Positions 26,645 through 33,804 of a DNA stretch of 33,804 bases are shown one piece after another (the first letter of the stretch is position 1; each line of letters begins with the position of its first letter). The notes under the pieces are model-generated. The model was not told where the DNA came from. It made no database searches and saw only the letters and a program-made list of their open reading frames with translations. The position numbers were made by a program, and so were the translations under genes. Source of the stretch: Lishizhenia tianjinensis. Lineage in GTDB: Bacteria > Bacteroidota > Bacteroidia > Flavobacteriales_D > Crocinitomicaceae. The stretch lies in assembly GCA_945902115.1 (NCBI GenBank), contig CAMDLY010000024.1, positions 1 to 33,804 of the forward strand, read 5' to 3'.

Positions 26645-28804
26645 ATGAGTCTCAATGTTCGCATCCTTATTTTTTCATTTCTTATTGGCCCATGGTGCTT
26701 TGTTGCTCAGCAATCCTATGATAGTATCAAAAAAACCTATAAGGATAAAAAACCCAATGAAGTTGTTAGAGAACTGGATAGTAAATTGGAATTTTATAAA
26801 TATAGTAATGCTGAATTACACCTACTTTTATTAAAAGATATAGAAGTAATTCCCTCCAATCAATTAGATAAAAATACCCAGAGAATAAAGACATGTGCGC
26901 TCGCGGAAGGGTATTTGCATATTGGGAATACAAAACAGAGTATTAAGCTCATTACTGAGCTGATTACACCAAATTTACGGTCTTTAAACGAGAGAGAGGA
27001 AGCGCTCTATTTGTGGTTTATTACACGTGAAAAATCTAAAAAAGTGGAAGCTTTGTCATTGGCTTCAAATCGATTAAAGAAGTCAAAATACTCAAGAGAC
27101 ATAAATAAAATCTACCGATCATACAAAGATTTATCGTTCGTTTATTTGATACATTCCAATGCGGATTCTGCAATATTTTATGCCTCTTTATCAACCGCGG
27201 AAGCCAAACGATTATCTGATAAAACTAGACTCATGGAAGCCATGAGGTACCAAGGTAAAGTTTATCATTATTTTGAGTATTATGTTGAGGCGGTAAAGAA
27301 AAAATTACAAATGATTCAGTTTGCCATTGAGTTCAATAATAATTATTTTAGGGCATATGGCTATTTTGAAATTGCATTGATTTCACTTGAATTACAGAAT
27401 TATAATCAGGTAAGCCAGTATTTAGAAAGAGCTCGAACATATTTCAAAAAAATAAGTGATCAAAGAGGAGAATTAACGGCTATTATTTTTGAAATTCAGA
27501 ACAATTATTCGCAAGGAAAAACAGTTGATTTCCCAGTACTTTTATCGTTAAGCCAGAGATTAAACAAATTTGAGGATCAATTGAGTAAATCCTTGGTTAG
27601 AATCGTGATGGCGGTTCATTTTAGAAACGAAAAGGAATTTAAAAAATCAATTAAAGAATTAGAAGAGGCTGAGAATTTATTGGTTGGTATGGAAGAGGAA
27701 AAACTGAAATACCTAATTCACAAAATATTGGCAATAAATTATTTAGAAATTAAGGATTTGAAATCAGCAAAGATTCACCTTGATAAGGCTTTCCCCCCTT
27801 TTAAAACGGTAAACTTAATGTTAGGTGAAACATACTTATTCCTTGCAGAATTACAATTGAAAAGAAATAATCTTACCGAAGCACTCAAGTATCAAAATGA
27901 GTACATCGAAGTAACAAGAAGTAATGATAAACAGCAATTTGCGCGCGCGGTGGAGCAACTTACTGAGGGTGATTTAAGAGAGGAAAGGGAAAAATTGATT
28001 TCTGAACAGCAAGCAAATCTGTTAGAAGGACAAAAGGAGAAGGAAAGAATTTCTTTTCTAAAGGATCGTCAGCTTATTATTGGAATTTCTTTAATTGTGG
28101 TAATTATTATGGTTCTTTTGATTTTATTTATTCGATTGAGAGCAGTTCGTTCCAGACAATTACAACGTGAGGCCGAAATGTCTCAAACACTTTTAAGGTC
28201 TCAAATGAATCCTCATTTCGTATTTAACGCCATGTCGGTTATACAGAGTTATATCTATGCCAATGATCCAGATAAATCTTCAAAGTTTCTCGTTAATTTT
28301 TCAAGGTTAATGCGACTAATACTTGAAAATTCACCTAAAGAAATGATTTCTTTAGAATTAGAATATGAAATTCTAGATAAATACCTCAATACCCAAAAAA
28401 TGAGGTTCGAAGACAGGTTTGACTATGAGCTGAACTTTGATGAAGAACTTCTTTTTGCAAAAGCTATGATCCCTCCTATGATAGCTCAGCCTTTTGTGGA
28501 AAATGCTATTGAACATGGTCAGTTGCACAGTATTGAAGGGGGCAAAATTAACGTTACAATTACCAAACGAGATGATCTGCTTGAAGTGTTGATTGAAGAC
28601 AATGGCGTTGGTAGAAAAAAATCCGCTAAAACCAATAAAATTAAAGAACACAAAAGTATGGCGATCGACATAACGAAAGAACGCATAGATATACTAAACC
28701 GTAAGTACAAAGTGAATGGATTGGCCGATATTACGGATTTATTTCCCAATGGCAGAGGAACTAGAGTAAGGATTTTGTTACCACTAAAATTTGAAGTAAT
28801 TTAA
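26645..28804 (+). CDS. TPR-containing LytS-type sensor histidine kinase
   Basis: A 719-residue kinase. A signal peptide (~1-22) leads to a periplasmic helical TPR-like region (~30-440), a charged coiled coil, and one membrane helix (477-498). The His_kinase domain of the LytS/YehU type follows: SQMNPHFVFNAMSV with phospho-acceptor His524, then PPMIAQPFVENAIEHG (N-box) and IEDNGVGRKKS (G-box). TPR-type sensors in Bacteroidota detect envelope signals that are mostly unknown. The LytTR regulator gene starts 2-17 nt after its stop, so the two form a two-component pair. Confidence 0.92.
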   Translation: MSLNVRILIFSFLIGPWCFVAQQSYDSIKKTYKDKKPNEVVRELDSKLEFYKYSNAELHLLLLKDIEVIPSNQLDKNTQRIKTCALAEGYLHIGNTKQSIKLITELITPNLRSLNEREEALYLWFITREKSKKVEALSLASNRLKKSKYSRDINKIYRSYKDLSFVYLIHSNADSAIFYASLSTAEAKRLSDKTRLMEAMRYQGKVYHYFEYYVEAVKKKLQMIQFAIEFNNNYFRAYGYFEIALISLELQNYNQVSQYLERARTYFKKISDQRGELTAIIFEIQNNYSQGKTVDFPVLLSLSQRLNKFEDQLSKSLVRIVMAVHFRNEKEFKKSIKELEEAENLLVGMEEEKLKYLIHKILAINYLEIKDLKSAKIHLDKAFPPFKTVNLMLGETYLFLAELQLKRNNLTEALKYQNEYIEVTRSNDKQQFARAVEQLTEGDLREEREKLISEQQANLLEGQKEKERISFLKDRQLIIGISLIVVIIMVLLILFIRLRAVRSRQLQREAEMSQTLLRSQMNPHFVFNAMSVIQSYIYANDPDKSSKFLVNFSRLMRLILENSPKEMISLELEYEILDKYLNTQKMRFEDRFDYELNFDEELLFAKAMIPPMIAQPFVENAIEHGQLHSIEGGKINVTITKRDDLLEVLIEDNGVGRKKSAKTNKIKEHKSMAIDITKERIDILNRKYKVNGLADITDLFPNGRGTRVRILLPLKFEVI

Positions 28805-28821
28805 ACGTGAAATTCAGAGCC

Positions 28822-29565
28822 ATGAAAAAAATTCTAATTATTGACGATGAAAAACCTACAAGAGACTTGATCAAACGCATGATTGATTCTTTTGGCTTTG
28901 ATGTTGAGGTTTATGACGATGGTCAAAATGTGCAAAGTGGCATTGAAGCCATTAACCGAATTAAGCCAGATTTGGTTTATTTAGATATTCAGATGCCAGA
29001 CGGTAATGGATTTGATGTGCTAAAATCAATTGATAATATAACTTTTTCAGTCATTTTCGTCACAGCTTTTCAAGAATATGCTATTCAAGCTATTAAGTTT
29101 AGTGCGATAGATTATATTTTGAAACCTATAGATGCTGACGAGTTGAAAGAAAGTTTGAATAGTGCTTTGATAAGGTTGAGTGAAAAGTCAGATGACTCTA
29201 TTTTTCAAGCGCTACAACACAATATTTCGCCCGCAAATAAAAGAAAGCTTGTATTAAAAACGCAAGAAAGCAATTATGTGGTAGATATAGAAGAAATCAT
29301 AAGATGTGAATCTGATAAAAATTATACATTTTTCTATCTTAAGTCTGGGAAAAAAATTTTAGTATCGAGAACATTAAAAGATTTTGATATTCTTCTCTCG
29401 CCGTTTCAATTTTTTAGGGTGCAACAATCACATTTAGTTAACCTAAATTATGTTGACCGGTACGATAAACAAGATGGAGGATCTGTCATAATGAAGGATG
29501 GAGCATCTATCCCTCTTTCTCCGGTGAAGAAGGAACAGTTTTTTAAAATGCTAGAGACACTTTAG
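28822..29565 (+). CDS. LytTR-family response regulator
   Basis: A 247-residue regulator. The receiver domain (1-125) has Asp8/Asp9, phospho-acceptor Asp55 in YLDIQMPDGNG, Thr81 and Lys101 in ILKPID. The C-terminal LytTR DNA-binding domain (~145-245) has DIEEIIRCESDKNYT and RVQQSHLVNL, both typical. It should be phosphorylated by the kinase just upstream. The frame is open from a GTG at 28807, but the ATG at 28822 gives the normal receiver N-terminus MKKILIIDDE, so I chose it. The stop overlaps that of the convergent trans-sulfuration gene in a TTAG tetranucleotide. Confidence 0.95.
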   Translation: MKKILIIDDEKPTRDLIKRMIDSFGFDVEVYDDGQNVQSGIEAINRIKPDLVYLDIQMPDGNGFDVLKSIDNITFSVIFVTAFQEYAIQAIKFSAIDYILKPIDADELKESLNSALIRLSEKSDDSIFQALQHNISPANKRKLVLKTQESNYVVDIEEIIRCESDKNYTFFYLKSGKKILVSRTLKDFDILLSPFQFFRVQQSHLVNLNYVDRYDKQDGGSVIMKDGASIPLSPVKKEQFFKMLETL

Positions 29566-29580
29566 CTTAAAGCATTTTTT
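29545..29580. terminator. Possible bidirectional terminator across overlapping stop codons
   Basis: AAAATGCT (29545-29552) and AGCATTTT (29571-29578) form an 8-bp inverted repeat with an 18-base loop that contains both stop codons of the convergent pair. On the forward strand the right arm runs into six T residues (29575-29580), and on the minus strand four T residues close the arm. The stem is AT-rich and the loop is long, so strength is uncertain. Confidence 0.35.
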
Positions 29581-30701
29581 AAATCATCGATTAAGTCATC
29601 AGCGTCTTCTATTCCCACACTTAAGCGAATTAATGAATCAACGACTCCACTTTTTTCTCTGACATCTTTTGGAATCGAGGCATGTGTCATGGTGGCTGGA
29701 TGCCCAATTAATGATTCTACACCACCCAAGGACTCGGCCAAAGCGAAAATCTTCATTTTTTTAACGGTATCTAGCGCATCTTGCAACTGGTTACCTTTTA
29801 ATGTAAAAGAAATCATACCTCCGAAACCTCTCATTTGTTTTTTAGCTACTTCATGATTTGGATGAGTCTCAAATCCCGGCCAATATACATTTTCGATTTT
29901 TGGATGATTTTCTAAGAAATGAGCAATTTTTTCACCATTTTCGCAATGACGTTGTACCCTTAAGTGCAATGTCTTAATACCTCTTAGTACTAAAAAGGAA
30001 TCCATTGGTGCTGTTACAGCGCCGGATGAATTTTGAATTCGGTAAATTTCTTTGGCTAATTCATCATTTGAAGTGACTAATGCCCCCATAACAACGTCTG
30101 AATGACCACCGAGATACTTAGTAACAGAATGCATAACAATATCTGCACCAAGGTCCAATGGATTTTGTAAAAAAGGAGTAGCGAACGTATTGTCTACAGC
30201 GAGTATTGCACCTGAGCGTTTCGCAACAGTTGACATTGCCGCTATATCAACAATATTCATCATGGGATTTGTTGGTGTTTCGACCCATATTAACTTAGTA
30301 TTTTTTGTAACCGCAGCTTCTACTGACGATACTTTTTGCATATCTACGAAGTGAAAAACGATGCCATACTTTTCAAATATAGTTTTGAAAATCCGGTAAG
30401 ATCCACCATATAAATCGTTGGTCGAAATCACCTCGTCACCAGGATTTAATATTTTAATGATGCAATCGATTGCGGCAAGACCAGAAGCAAAACAGGCACC
30501 ATATTTCCCGTTTTCAATCGCAGCTATATTCTTCTCTAGGGCATGCCTAGTTGGATTTTGAGTTCGTGAATATTCGTATCCTTTATGATTTCCAACGCCA
30601 TCCTGAACGTATGTGGACGTTTGGTATATTGGAGTCATAATAGCTCCTGTGGATTCGTCTGGATGGACTCCAGCGTGTATGGCTTTAGTACCGAATTTCA
30701 T
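29562..30701 (-). CDS. Cystathionine gamma-synthase/lyase family PLP enzyme
   Basis: A 379-residue trans-sulfuration enzyme. With the ATG at 30701 as start, Tyr44 and Arg46 lie in EYSRTQNPTR, the cofactor Asp170 in VDNTFATPF, and the Schiff-base Lys195 in SVTKYLGGHSDV. The late ESLGGVESLIGHPATMTH segment is also conserved. It makes or cleaves cystathionine in methionine/cysteine metabolism; synthase and lyase activity cannot be separated from sequence alone. The frame continues to a TTG at 30722, but a -7 box at 30720-30727 overlaps that codon, so the ATG is preferred. Confidence 0.93.
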   Translation of the reverse strand: MKFGTKAIHAGVHPDESTGAIMTPIYQTSTYVQDGVGNHKGYEYSRTQNPTRHALEKNIAAIENGKYGACFASGLAAIDCIIKILNPGDEVISTNDLYGGSYRIFKTIFEKYGIVFHFVDMQKVSSVEAAVTKNTKLIWVETPTNPMMNIVDIAAMSTVAKRSGAILAVDNTFATPFLQNPLDLGADIVMHSVTKYLGGHSDVVMGALVTSNDELAKEIYRIQNSSGAVTAPMDSFLVLRGIKTLHLRVQRHCENGEKIAHFLENHPKIENVYWPGFETHPNHEVAKKQMRGFGGMISFTLKGNQLQDALDTVKKMKIFALAESLGGVESLIGHPATMTHASIPKDVREKSGVVDSLIRLSVGIEDADDLIDDLKNALS

Positions 30702-30719
30702 AATTTTTCGCTTTGTTGG

Positions 30720-30727
30720 CAAATGTA
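30720..30727 (-). promoter_or_regulatory. -7 box (TACATTTG, minus strand) before the trans-sulfuration gene
   Basis: On the minus strand 30727 to 30720 reads TACATTTG, fitting TAnnTTTG. Transcription would begin near 30714, about 12 nt before the ATG at 30701. A TTTG further upstream is separated by about 26 nt, a little more than the usual 17-23. Confidence 0.45.
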
Positions 30728-30790
30728 ACGAAAATAGGTGTTCGCGTTTGTTTCAAAGTTCTCAAAAGTATAATTCTAAATTCTAAAATT

Positions 30791-31201
30791 ATGAAACTGT
30801 TCACTAGTTGTTGTTTTTTGTTCTCAATGCATATAATTTATGCACAATACAGTTTTTCGGTAAAAAATTTAAATCAAATTGATATGGAAACGAAAGAGTT
30901 AATATCAACAATTGCGGTGAATCAATTCTTTAATTTTTCTCTGAAAGATGGTTTTATGGTCCATAATTTAATTGATAGCGAAGGTAATATTGAAGACAGT
31001 CAATTTTATAAAATAATTAAAAAAGAAAAAAAGAAGGACTTAATATGGCTTTCCTGTAAGTCCGGAGTTTCGGGAAATATTTATCAGTACTTTATCAGTG
31101 AGGGAGACGAAACTGGTACTCAACTGTTTCAATATTTAGAGGAAAATTCGGTATATCAAATGGAAGGGGAGTTTGGTAAATGTAAAACATTCAATCAATA
31201 G
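30791..31201 (+). CDS. Small secreted protein, unknown function
   Basis: Starting at the ATG at 30791, the 136-residue product has a signal peptide (MKLFTSCCFLFSMHIIYAQ) and a mature beta-rich, charged domain with KKEKKKDLIWLSCKSG and a single later Cys. An earlier in-frame TTG at 30713 would add 26 residues ahead of the signal peptide and overlap the divergent gene's promoter, so I reject it. I recognise no family. The 3' end overlaps the convergent alkyltransferase-like gene by 11 nt. Confidence 0.6.
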   Translation: MKLFTSCCFLFSMHIIYAQYSFSVKNLNQIDMETKELISTIAVNQFFNFSLKDGFMVHNLIDSEGNIEDSQFYKIIKKEKKKDLIWLSCKSGVSGNIYQYFISEGDETGTQLFQYLEENSVYQMEGEFGKCKTFNQ

Positions 31202-31538
31202 GTATTTCTTTGGAAGGACTCCAAAATACCCTATCGAAGTTTACAATTTTGTTGTCAACTATTTCTATTCCTTCAGCAATGAGTAATTCCTCCATCTCCG
31301 TTGGGCTGGAAAAGTGCATCTTCCCAGTTAATAAACCAATCCTGTTTACCACACGATGAGCGGGTATCTGCTTTGTTGCATGTGATGCATTCATTGCCCA
31401 ACCTACCAATCGAGAAGATCTTGTTGCCCCAAGGTAATTGGCAATTGCGCCATAGCTTGTAACTCTGCCAAAAGGAATTAGTTTTACTACCTCGTAAACT
31501 AGATCGAAGAAATCCTTGTTTTTATCAGAAATTCTCAT
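31191..31538 (-). CDS. Alkyltransferase-like (ATL) protein, MGMT family without the acceptor Cys
   Basis: A 115-residue protein with the DNA-binding domain of O6-alkylguanine-DNA alkyltransferases: FGRVTSYGAIANYLG, SSRLVGWAMNAS, then PAHRVVNRIG. In active enzymes this last motif is PCHRV; here Ala60 stands at the acceptor position. ATL proteins bind O6-alkylguanine without removing the alkyl group and hand the lesion to nucleotide excision repair. Alanine and tryptophan are known replacements in that class. The gene is alone on its strand between a convergent secreted-protein gene and the pyrophosphatase gene. Confidence 0.9.
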   Translation of the reverse strand: MRISDKNKDFFDLVYEVVKLIPFGRVTSYGAIANYLGATRSSRLVGWAMNASHATKQIPAHRVVNRIGLLTGKMHFSSPTEMEELLIAEGIEIVDNKIVNFDRVFWSPSKEIPID

Positions 31539-31671
31539 TCTTCAATGATTTATTGTAATCCTATAGTATATTATTTTTGAAAAGATTGGTTATTGATTCA
31601 ACGGGTATAGGATTTATAACTTCAAATCAAGTCTAGGCAATTTACTAGCTGAATAGTTAAAAGTTGATTAC

Positions 31672-31699
31672 AAAAAAAAGGCAGTTTCTTCTGCCTTTT
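31672..31699 (-). terminator. Intrinsic terminator of the pyrophosphatase gene
   Basis: On the minus strand AAAAGGCAG (31699-31691) pairs with CTGCCTTTT (31684-31676) across a 6-base loop and is followed by a total of eight T residues (31679-31672). It begins 6 nt after the stop codon of the pyrophosphatase gene and is a clear stop signal for it. The rest of the gap, 31539-31671, shows no further structure I can support. Confidence 0.85.
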
Positions 31700-31704
31700 C
31701 ATAT

Positions 31705-33804
31705 TTAGTGTTTTGCACAACAATCGCCTTTTTCTTCCTGTGCGGTTTTACCAATCCACTTATCGTCTTTATCGTAATATTTCATGCAACTCGCTTTTTC
31801 CTCTGGGGAACATTTCAAAGTTTCACACATCAATGCACATTCCTCTTTGGACATATCAGCGCATTTTGACATATCACATTTCATGTTGGAACCTGATGTT
31901 GTATTTACAACAGTTTTAGGAGTAGACACATTCTTGTCTTCTACCGCATGACCACTACCCAATATTGGGGCAATTACCAAGCCTATTAAACAGGTAAGTT
32001 TAATTAGAATATTCATGGAGGGACCTGAGGTATCTTTGAAAGGATCACCAACTGTATCCCCTGTGACTGCCGCTTTATGGGCATCTGATCCTTTGTAAGT
32101 CATTTCGCCGTTAATTTCAACTCCTGCTTCAAATGATTTCTTCGCGTTATCCCAAGCACCGCCTGCATTGTTTTGAAATACAGCCCAAAGAACACCCGAT
32201 ACAGTAACGCCTGCCATGTAACCACCAAGCATTTCAGCAATTAATTGATTGTTATCTCCGTAAACTAGTTTACCTAAAAGAACTATGGCTATTGGAAACC
32301 CAATGGTTAAAACACCCGGCAACATCATTTCACGTAAAGCAGCTTTGGTGGATATTTCCACACATTTTCCGTATTCTGGCTTACCAGTTCCTTCCATAAT
32401 ACCCGGAATTTCTTTGAACTGCCGACGAACTTCGTATACCATGTCCATTGCCGCTTTACCAACTGAATTCATCGCTAATGCAGAGAAAACAACTGGAATC
32501 ATTCCCCCAATGAATAACATAGCTAAAACAGGAGCTTTGAATATATTTATTCCATCAATACCAGTGAAGGTAACATAGGCAGCAAAAAGTGCTAATGATG
32601 TCAAGGCAGCCGAAGCGATAGCAAAGCCTTTTCCTGTTGCCGCCGTTGTGTTTCCTACAGAATCTAGTATGTCTGTTCGTTGACGAACTTCTTTAGGGAG
32701 CTCGCTCATTTCCGCAATACCACCTGCGTTATCCGAAATTGGTCCGAAAGCGTCAATTGCTAATTGCATAGCTGTTGTTGCCATCATTGCTGAAGCTGCT
32801 AAAGCTACCCCATAAAATCCTGCTAATTCATAAGAGCCCCAGATGGCAGCTGCAAATAAGATTACCGTTGGGAAAGTAGAAATCATTCCAGTTGCTAGAC
32901 CCGCTATCACGTTAGTTCCTGCACCAGTAGAAGATTTTTGTACAATTTTCAATACTGGTTTCGTACCTAGTCCAGTATAATACTCAGTTACTGAAGATAT
33001 AGCTCCACCAACTACTAAACCTACTAAAGTTGCATAAAACACTCTTAATGATGAAATTTCTTTCACGCCTTCACCAAAGAAATTCATTGACATAGATTCT
33101 GGTAACATATATCTTACCAATACGAAACAAGCAATAGCTGTAAGAACAATAGATTCCCAGTTTCCAATGTTTAGTGCTTTTTGAACTTGCGCTTCTTTTG
33201 CATCATTACTTGTAATTTTAACAAGCATTGTTCCAATAATTGAGAAAAGAATTCCAAAGCCAGCAATCGACATCGGTAATAAAATTGGACCAATTCCTCC
33301 AAAAGCATCATTTATTACTCCTCCCATATCTTTGATAACATAGTTACCAAGAACCATGGCAGCTAATACGGTTGCAACATAAGAACCAAATAAATCGGCA
33401 CCCATTCCAGCAACGTCTCCAACATTATCTCCTACGTTATCTGCAATAGTTGCAGGGTTTCGAGGATCATCTTCTGGAATTCCAGCTTCTACTTTTCCTA
33501 CTAGATCTGCTCCGACGTCTGCAGCTTTTGTATAAATACCACCACCAACACGAGCGAACAATGCAATAGATTCAGCTCCTAGAGAGAAACCTGCTAATGT
33601 TTCAAGAACAATTGTCATTTTATCAGTTCCACCATTTGCCCAATCTCCACCCATAAAGAAGTGGAAGAATAAAATAAAGAAAGTTGTTAAACCTAAAACA
33701 GCTAAACCAGCAACACCTAAACCCATTACAGTTCCACCACCAAAAGCAACTTTCAATGCTTGTGGTAAACTTGTACGAGCTGCTTGAGTTGTGCGAACAT
33801 TTGT
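31705..33804 (-). CDS. hppA: Membrane-bound ion-translocating pyrophosphatase with Cys-rich tail (5' partial)
   Basis: The frame stays open to the window end, so the N-terminus is missing; the TTG at 33756 is internal (a Leu in [10 protein letters not shown]). About 700 residues are visible. The substrate motifs are present: [47 protein letters not shown] and [16 protein letters not shown]. The sequence [10 protein letters not shown] has Ala where potassium-independent enzymes have Lys, so this is likely the potassium-stimulated type; H+ versus Na+ pumping cannot be decided. The enzyme splits PPi and pumps ions outward. After the last helix an extra ~70 residues contain eight cysteines, including a tandem C-X4-C-X7-C-X3 repeat. 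A clear terminator follows. Confidence 0.95.

Follow-up and report, generated by a model that had tools for sequence, protein, structure and literature searches.

The membrane-bound pyrophosphatase at the end of a Lishizhenia tianjinensis contig carries, beyond its last transmembrane helix, a tail with a 43-residue module of six regularly spaced Cys that, judged from sequence, represents a new accessory domain of a known pump and is listed in neither Pfam nor NCBIfam. The reading that we tentatively favor, with a probability of roughly 0.45, is that it is a thiolate module, tethered in the periplasm, which binds soft metal. The tail would then serve the pyrophosphate-driven ion pump as an accessory module in the periplasm, with a flexible linker from transmembrane helix 16 (TM16) carrying a compact helical mini-domain of ~43 residues that contains much Cys and Met. 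On the outer face of the pump, its thiolates and thioethers would bind soft metal ions, e.g., Cu(I) or Zn(II), and such a tethered metal buffer might shield the pump or add to metal handling in the envelope. The gene lies at one edge of the window (the whole stretch of 33,804 nucleotides analyzed, contig CAMDLY010000024.1), where the following features were assigned.

31705 to 33804, minus strand: membrane-bound pyrophosphatase, predicted sodium-translocating type, 699 residues seen (Pfam H_PPase, NCBIfam NF001955)
31957 to 32034 (ends approximate), minus strand: TM16, the last transmembrane helix, with the catalytic/gate segment (sequence, end of the family match, AF2 helix)
31879 to 31956, minus strand: linker between TM16 and the module, predicted to be disordered (pLDDT below 50, linker composition of relatives, dN/dS)
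31750 to 31878, minus strand: six-Cys module, 43 residues, ending in YDKDDKWIG (relatives' copies, AF2 pLDDT 82-90)
31708 to 31749, minus strand: C-terminal stretch with a CC pair ahead of AKH (sequence)
31675 to 31700, minus strand: terminator-like stem-loop and T run directly 3' of the stop codon (repeat search against shuffles)

Membership in the membrane-bound pyrophosphatase family is indicated by scores above both curated cut-offs: 760.5 bits against 29.7 for Pfam PF03030 (E value, 2.2e-228) and 1076.5 bits against 1059 for NF001955. The translation contains the DTSGP..NILIKL segment in TM16, whose catalytic and gate roles are taken from family knowledge and from passages of PMC5150537. 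The open reading frame (33804-31705, minus strand) closes with a stop codon at 31707-31705, and its 5' end is truncated by the contig edge; the remaining N-terminal part, about 111 residues, lies on another contig of the same assembly (G000:C63). Window positions 33385-33804 overlap G000:C63:12780-13199 over 420 bases with 22 mismatches and identical protein, and the overlapping ends look as though strain variants broke the assembly. The terminator-like stem gave two matches (one per strand, the same repeat) against a mean of 0.2 in shuffles. The order of genes across window positions 26645-33804 is pyrophosphatase, MGMT-like, Cys/Met PLP enzyme, LytTR regulator and sensor kinase; a Crocinitomicaceae metagenome-assembled genome (MAG; locus L105) has the same order, its genes being judged by eye.

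The Pfam match stops at residue 611 of the 699. The tail that the initial annotation had put at ~70 residues is real but longer, with 88 residues past the Pfam domain. Its Cys pattern is exactly as first described: six Cys spaced C-X4-C-X7-C-X3-C-X4-C-X7-C are followed by the acidic YDKDDKWIG stretch and then by a CC pair before the terminal AKH, giving eight Cys in total, and 31878-31708 starts exactly at the first Cys of the module and stops with the final codon. When the tail was shuffled with the same eight Cys, any Cys triple was repeated in 455 of 20,000 trials (2.3%). The spacing had been attributed to duplication of a 17-residue unit, a view that found no support outside the Cys columns (p = 0.085 for 37 nonredundant copies against shuffled columns). 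Since the two halves are not significantly alike apart from Cys, a single module explains the spacing better than a recent duplication does. Of 93 module-bearing tails, 81 have a CC pair after the module. The linker of the window protein is Cys-free, whereas those of relatives abound in Cys, Met and His.

Solved membrane pyrophosphatases terminate at TM16. The pump studied here has the same catalytic and transmembrane core, TM16 segment included, as the solved enzymes of Thermotoga maritima (4av3) and Vigna radiata (4a01), and residues 11-721 of a full-length relative (P0004) align to residues 18-728 of the 735 in 4av3. Unlike the solved pumps, which end right after TM16, the window pump continues past the family match into the tail with its six-Cys module. 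Passages of PMC5150537 describe the family as having 16 transmembrane helices, a cytoplasmic hydrolytic center and an exit channel on the periplasmic or lumenal side, with TM16 bearing gate residues and changing shape on substrate binding. The tail starts where TM16 exits the membrane, and a periplasmic location is therefore expected. By analogy, YceI and OmpA domains at the same terminus in other pumps also support this position. Thus, the tail should be periplasmic, in agreement with the side of the membrane first proposed.

These other domains belong to a wider pattern. The premise that pyrophosphatases usually stop behind their last helix does not describe the class Bacteroidia, in which 28 of 29 chosen pumps have an extension of 31-211 residues past TM16; outside the class, an extension was found in 5 of 17, and four more were unreadable because the motif used was missing. 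A Pfam scan of 10 tails identified YceI in six, all from relatives of the same order (L059, L060, L062, L063, L199 and L201), and OmpA in two from other Bacteroidota (L158 and L165), where two further OmpA-like tails (L159 and L168) were recognized by eye. Long C-terminal domains of 200-220 residues were seen in L059-L063, L199 and L201. The window tail has no Pfam match to YceI or OmpA, its best hit being DUF354 at chance level (E 0.13). A second Cys motif, C-X3-C-X3-C-X5-C-X3-C-X3-C or similar, was noticed by eye near the end of other pyrophosphatase tails (L226, L227, L229, L231-L233, L240, L242 and L244). A recurring stretch, NVKVVITNTNGKAKATV...EVKAKVEALK, follows the module in L106 and many Flavobacterium tails and had no Pfam match in the one tail scanned. 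The Cys module is one of several C-terminal attachments at the same site, beside YceI and OmpA. Extra C-terminal domains are also reported for the pumps of Paucibacter and other Burkholderiales, where they are OmpA-like rather than Cys-rich, and the role of the Paucibacter domain is left unresolved in the relevant passages of a review (PMC11210485). OmpA and YceI fusions at the equivalent terminus were found here in Bacteroidota. Searches of open-license papers listed no description of this pyrophosphatase Cys module.

With the tail (residues 612-699) as the query, 319 proteins matched at an E value of 0.01 or better; the best 120 of these 319 matches all belonged to PF03030, and all had the module. 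In the 121 proteins formed by the best 120 of 319 matches and the query, the module occurs once in 99 and twice in 22, and what is duplicated there is the whole module. A sample across the phylum gave a match in 18 of 392 genomes, one of them judged to be due to chance (G228, locus L020, E 6e-4, antisense to a 323-residue ORF), and a sample of relatives gave a tail match in 16 of 40. In the class Bacteroidia, matches at E 0.01 were found in 61 of 396 genomes, covering 20 of 198 genera and 12 families. The open frames that hold them span 787-906 residues, apart from that of the window (699) and two shorter ones (256 and 287), and every locus fetched from 20 genomes (20/20) was a pyrophosphatase C terminus. 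In a collection of named genomes, 324 stretches encode a relative, and among the matches listed 80 of 80 are pyrophosphatases. Carriers in this collection include cultured Flavobacterium and MAGs titled Crocinitomicaceae; Flavobacterium fontis and F. seoulense both have the module, and two Crocinitomicaceae MAG tails are identical to those of members of the window's genus (L105 to G405 and L110 to G393). MAGs titled Rhizobium, Bifidobacterium and Polynucleobacter have tails that look flavobacterial and were not taken as evidence of spread beyond Bacteroidota.

No convincing stand-alone module was found among 7 short and 10 mid-length matches, in a search that requires shared five-residue words and could therefore miss distant stand-alone relatives. 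Four of the seven short matches retain remnants of TM16. The others (P0122, P0124 and P0125), on contigs of 568-2601 bases, have an internal Met as their start; they look like truncated gene calls but, containing no TM16, are no proof of truncation. Among the mid-length matches, 8 of 10 carry PF03030, and the remaining two (P0137 and P0138) begin within TM16. In all copies examined, the module was seen only on the pyrophosphatase pump.

A profile built from six-Cys copies matched 249 rows, from which removal of rows with more than eight gaps and of repeats left 185 distinct copies. All six Cys stand at the spacing of the window in 168 of the 185, and Cys 3 to 6 are present in 184. Losses are confined to Cys 1 and 2, save one copy without Cys 2 and 3, and Cys 2 is lost with Cys 1 kept in seven copies. 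The four-Cys core following TM16 (Cys3-X3-Cys4-X4-Cys5-X7-Cys6), present in the window module, also occurred in 49 of 51 tails found by profile without selection for a Cys pattern. In 157 distinct full-length copies, Cys 2 is conserved in 150 and replaced by Met in 4, by Leu in 2 and by Val in 1. A form shorter by two residues, common in one Flavobacterium genome set, retains only one of Cys 1 and 2.

The ratio of nonsynonymous to synonymous substitution (dN/dS) across 43 locus pairs, drawn from 91 loci with each locus used once, was 0.10 in the module, against 0.35 in the preceding linker and 0.29 in the residues that follow; independence of the pairs is incomplete, since four species enter twice (L037/L098, L038/L105, L044/L110 and L054/L095), and most loci came from a search with the pattern M[TS]K[ED]ECA[KAL], which favors conserved modules and somewhat lowers the module dN. 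The adjoining enzyme core had a value of 0.027. The linkers shift rapidly in length and sequence, with gaps in 372 of 1712 aligned columns. By these sequence comparisons, the module is under purifying selection.

The pump is present in all 25 sampled genomes of the window's genus, and the tail has at least four Cys in 24 and the four-Cys core in 14 of them. A shorter, partial or different Cys tail is found in 10 of the 25; among these, L047 is cut at a contig end and L203 ends at TGA. One further genome (G402) has a tail without Cys, and its gene reads with an in-frame TGA. In-frame TGA was also considered in pyrophosphatases of other families and proved to be an ordinary stop in the three inspected. 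Since the module is partial or absent in 11 of 25 members, it would not be essential to the pump. The findings that were said to speak against a genuine tail, i.e., frameshift or misassembly, absence from relatives and unconserved Cys, were all looked for, and none holds.

On a tree of 63 pump cores stripped of their tails (5 candidate rows were left out as short), the module label changes 15 times, gains and losses pooled, with at least 11 changes forced by well-supported branches; this number may be too high, because the strict pattern could label modules lacking Cys 2 as non-module, as with L224 (G057), a module that has lost Cys 2 and was scored 'cysnomod'. The mean in shuffles was 20.6, and 4 of 500 shuffles were equally low, so that clustering on the tree is weak. 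The pattern suggests that the tail comes and goes while staying on the pyrophosphatase pump.

AF2 predicts the module block as short helices at tail residues 35-39, 43-52 and 57-64, with a pLDDT of 82-90, the module having been modeled as part of longer chains. A full-length model repeats these helices and places a low-confidence helix, corresponding to TM16, at residues 588-616; its mean pLDDT of 61.8 is too poor for topology. Neither Pfam nor NCBIfam gave a significant match for the module, and Foldseek with the model gave none at an E value of 0.001 or better, a second look (VIA) covering 11 chains. EF-hands gave weak leads only (2y4q and 2pmy): at E values up to 10, none of the Pfam matches of 18 copies was to an EF-hand family, and the family was also absent from the matches of two scanned tails. 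The Cys 2 place presumably corresponds to a ligand position of the would-be EF-hand loop and, unlike in an EF-hand, holds Cys, Met, Leu or Val and no oxygen ligand. Matches to ROP (E 0.41 and above) and to a leucine-rich repeat (E 2.5e-4 for the whole sequence, with no single stretch passing) were judged to be due to chance.

Several observations lead us to favor soft-metal binding. First, linkers in 93 module-bearing tails contain 9.6% Cys, 10.0% Met and 3.9% His, and the modules themselves contain 14% Cys and 8.9% Met, compared with 0.9% Cys, 2.2% Met and 1.8% His in the 23 other proteins of the window. Second, where Cys 2 is replaced in distinct full-length copies, Met takes its place in four of seven. 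Third, Cys totals are often odd, and a different Cys-rich motif ends several other tails. Fourth, of the thiol-oxidase families covered (DsbA, DsbB and VKOR), DsbB and VKOR had no match in any of 25 genomes, 16 of them from the window's genus, and DsbA had none in the window's own genome. Several points count against metal binding: the Leu or Val found at Cys 2 in some copies may reflect burial and not ligation, disulfides would fit the fixed spacing and compact fold equally well, the linker of the window protein lacks Cys, DsbA-family matches occur in some relatives, and the module is incomplete or missing in part of the genus. Metallothioneins and other Cys-rich metal buffers combine high Cys content with variable length and copy number. 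The tail resembles them in being Cys-rich, with Met and His in relatives' linkers, and in varying in length and copy number; it differs in being borne by a pump, with a fixed spacing and a fold predicted to be helical, and its metal binding is putative, as suggested by composition.

A disulfide-stabilized helical mini-domain, with bonds such as Cys3-Cys6 and Cys4-Cys5, could instead dock the pump to an envelope partner, as OmpA or YceI could. This explanation is possible but doubtful. It would account for the near-invariant Cys 3 to 6 with their fixed spacing, the predicted helical hairpin and the occupation of the same site by other accessory domains, and it is helped by DsbA-family matches in 9 of 25 relatives' genomes. 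It sits less well with the missing DsbB and VKOR, with the lack of a DsbA match in the window's genome and with the abundance of Cys, Met and His, at no fixed spacing, in relatives' linkers. Moreover, 40 of 92 tails have an odd number of Cys, so that complete pairing within one chain can be no rule, and Cys 2 can be lost while Cys 1 is kept.

Metal loading or Cys oxidation might also alter TM16 and thereby tune pyrophosphate-driven pumping to the redox or metal state of the envelope. The tail is joined directly to the gate-bearing helix reshaped on substrate binding, as passages of PMC5150537 describe it, and the restriction of the module to the pump is something that a free-standing buffer would not require. 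A linker of variable length that is predicted to be disordered would, however, be a poor lever, and almost half of the genus members lack a complete module; we consider such a sensor distinctly unlikely. The broader proposal of a pump equipped with a periplasmic receptor for metal or redox state that acts via TM16, as one of a set of exchangeable domains (Cys module, YceI and OmpA) in Bacteroidia, is likewise unlikely.

A neutral or weakly selected low-complexity tail without specific function is very improbable: the rapid change of the linkers and the patchy presence on the pump tree would fit it, but the low dN/dS of the module, the retention of Cys 3 to 6 and the presence of the module in 12 families largely refute it, as far as sequence comparison allows. 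An artefact of frameshift or misassembly has a vanishingly small chance of being correct, since, despite the location of the gene at a contig end, the tail lies ~2 kb from the break, a terminator-like stem stands behind the stop and the same tail occurs in many independent assemblies.

Many members of one bacterial class add domains to this pump where the solved pumps end. The cultured Flavobacterium carriers make the module open to experiment. If the module only docks the pump, this would suggest that the pyrophosphatase has envelope partners still to be found. If it binds metal, as we favor, or switches with redox state, it would offer a direct handle on the way in which envelope conditions act on a primary ion pump.
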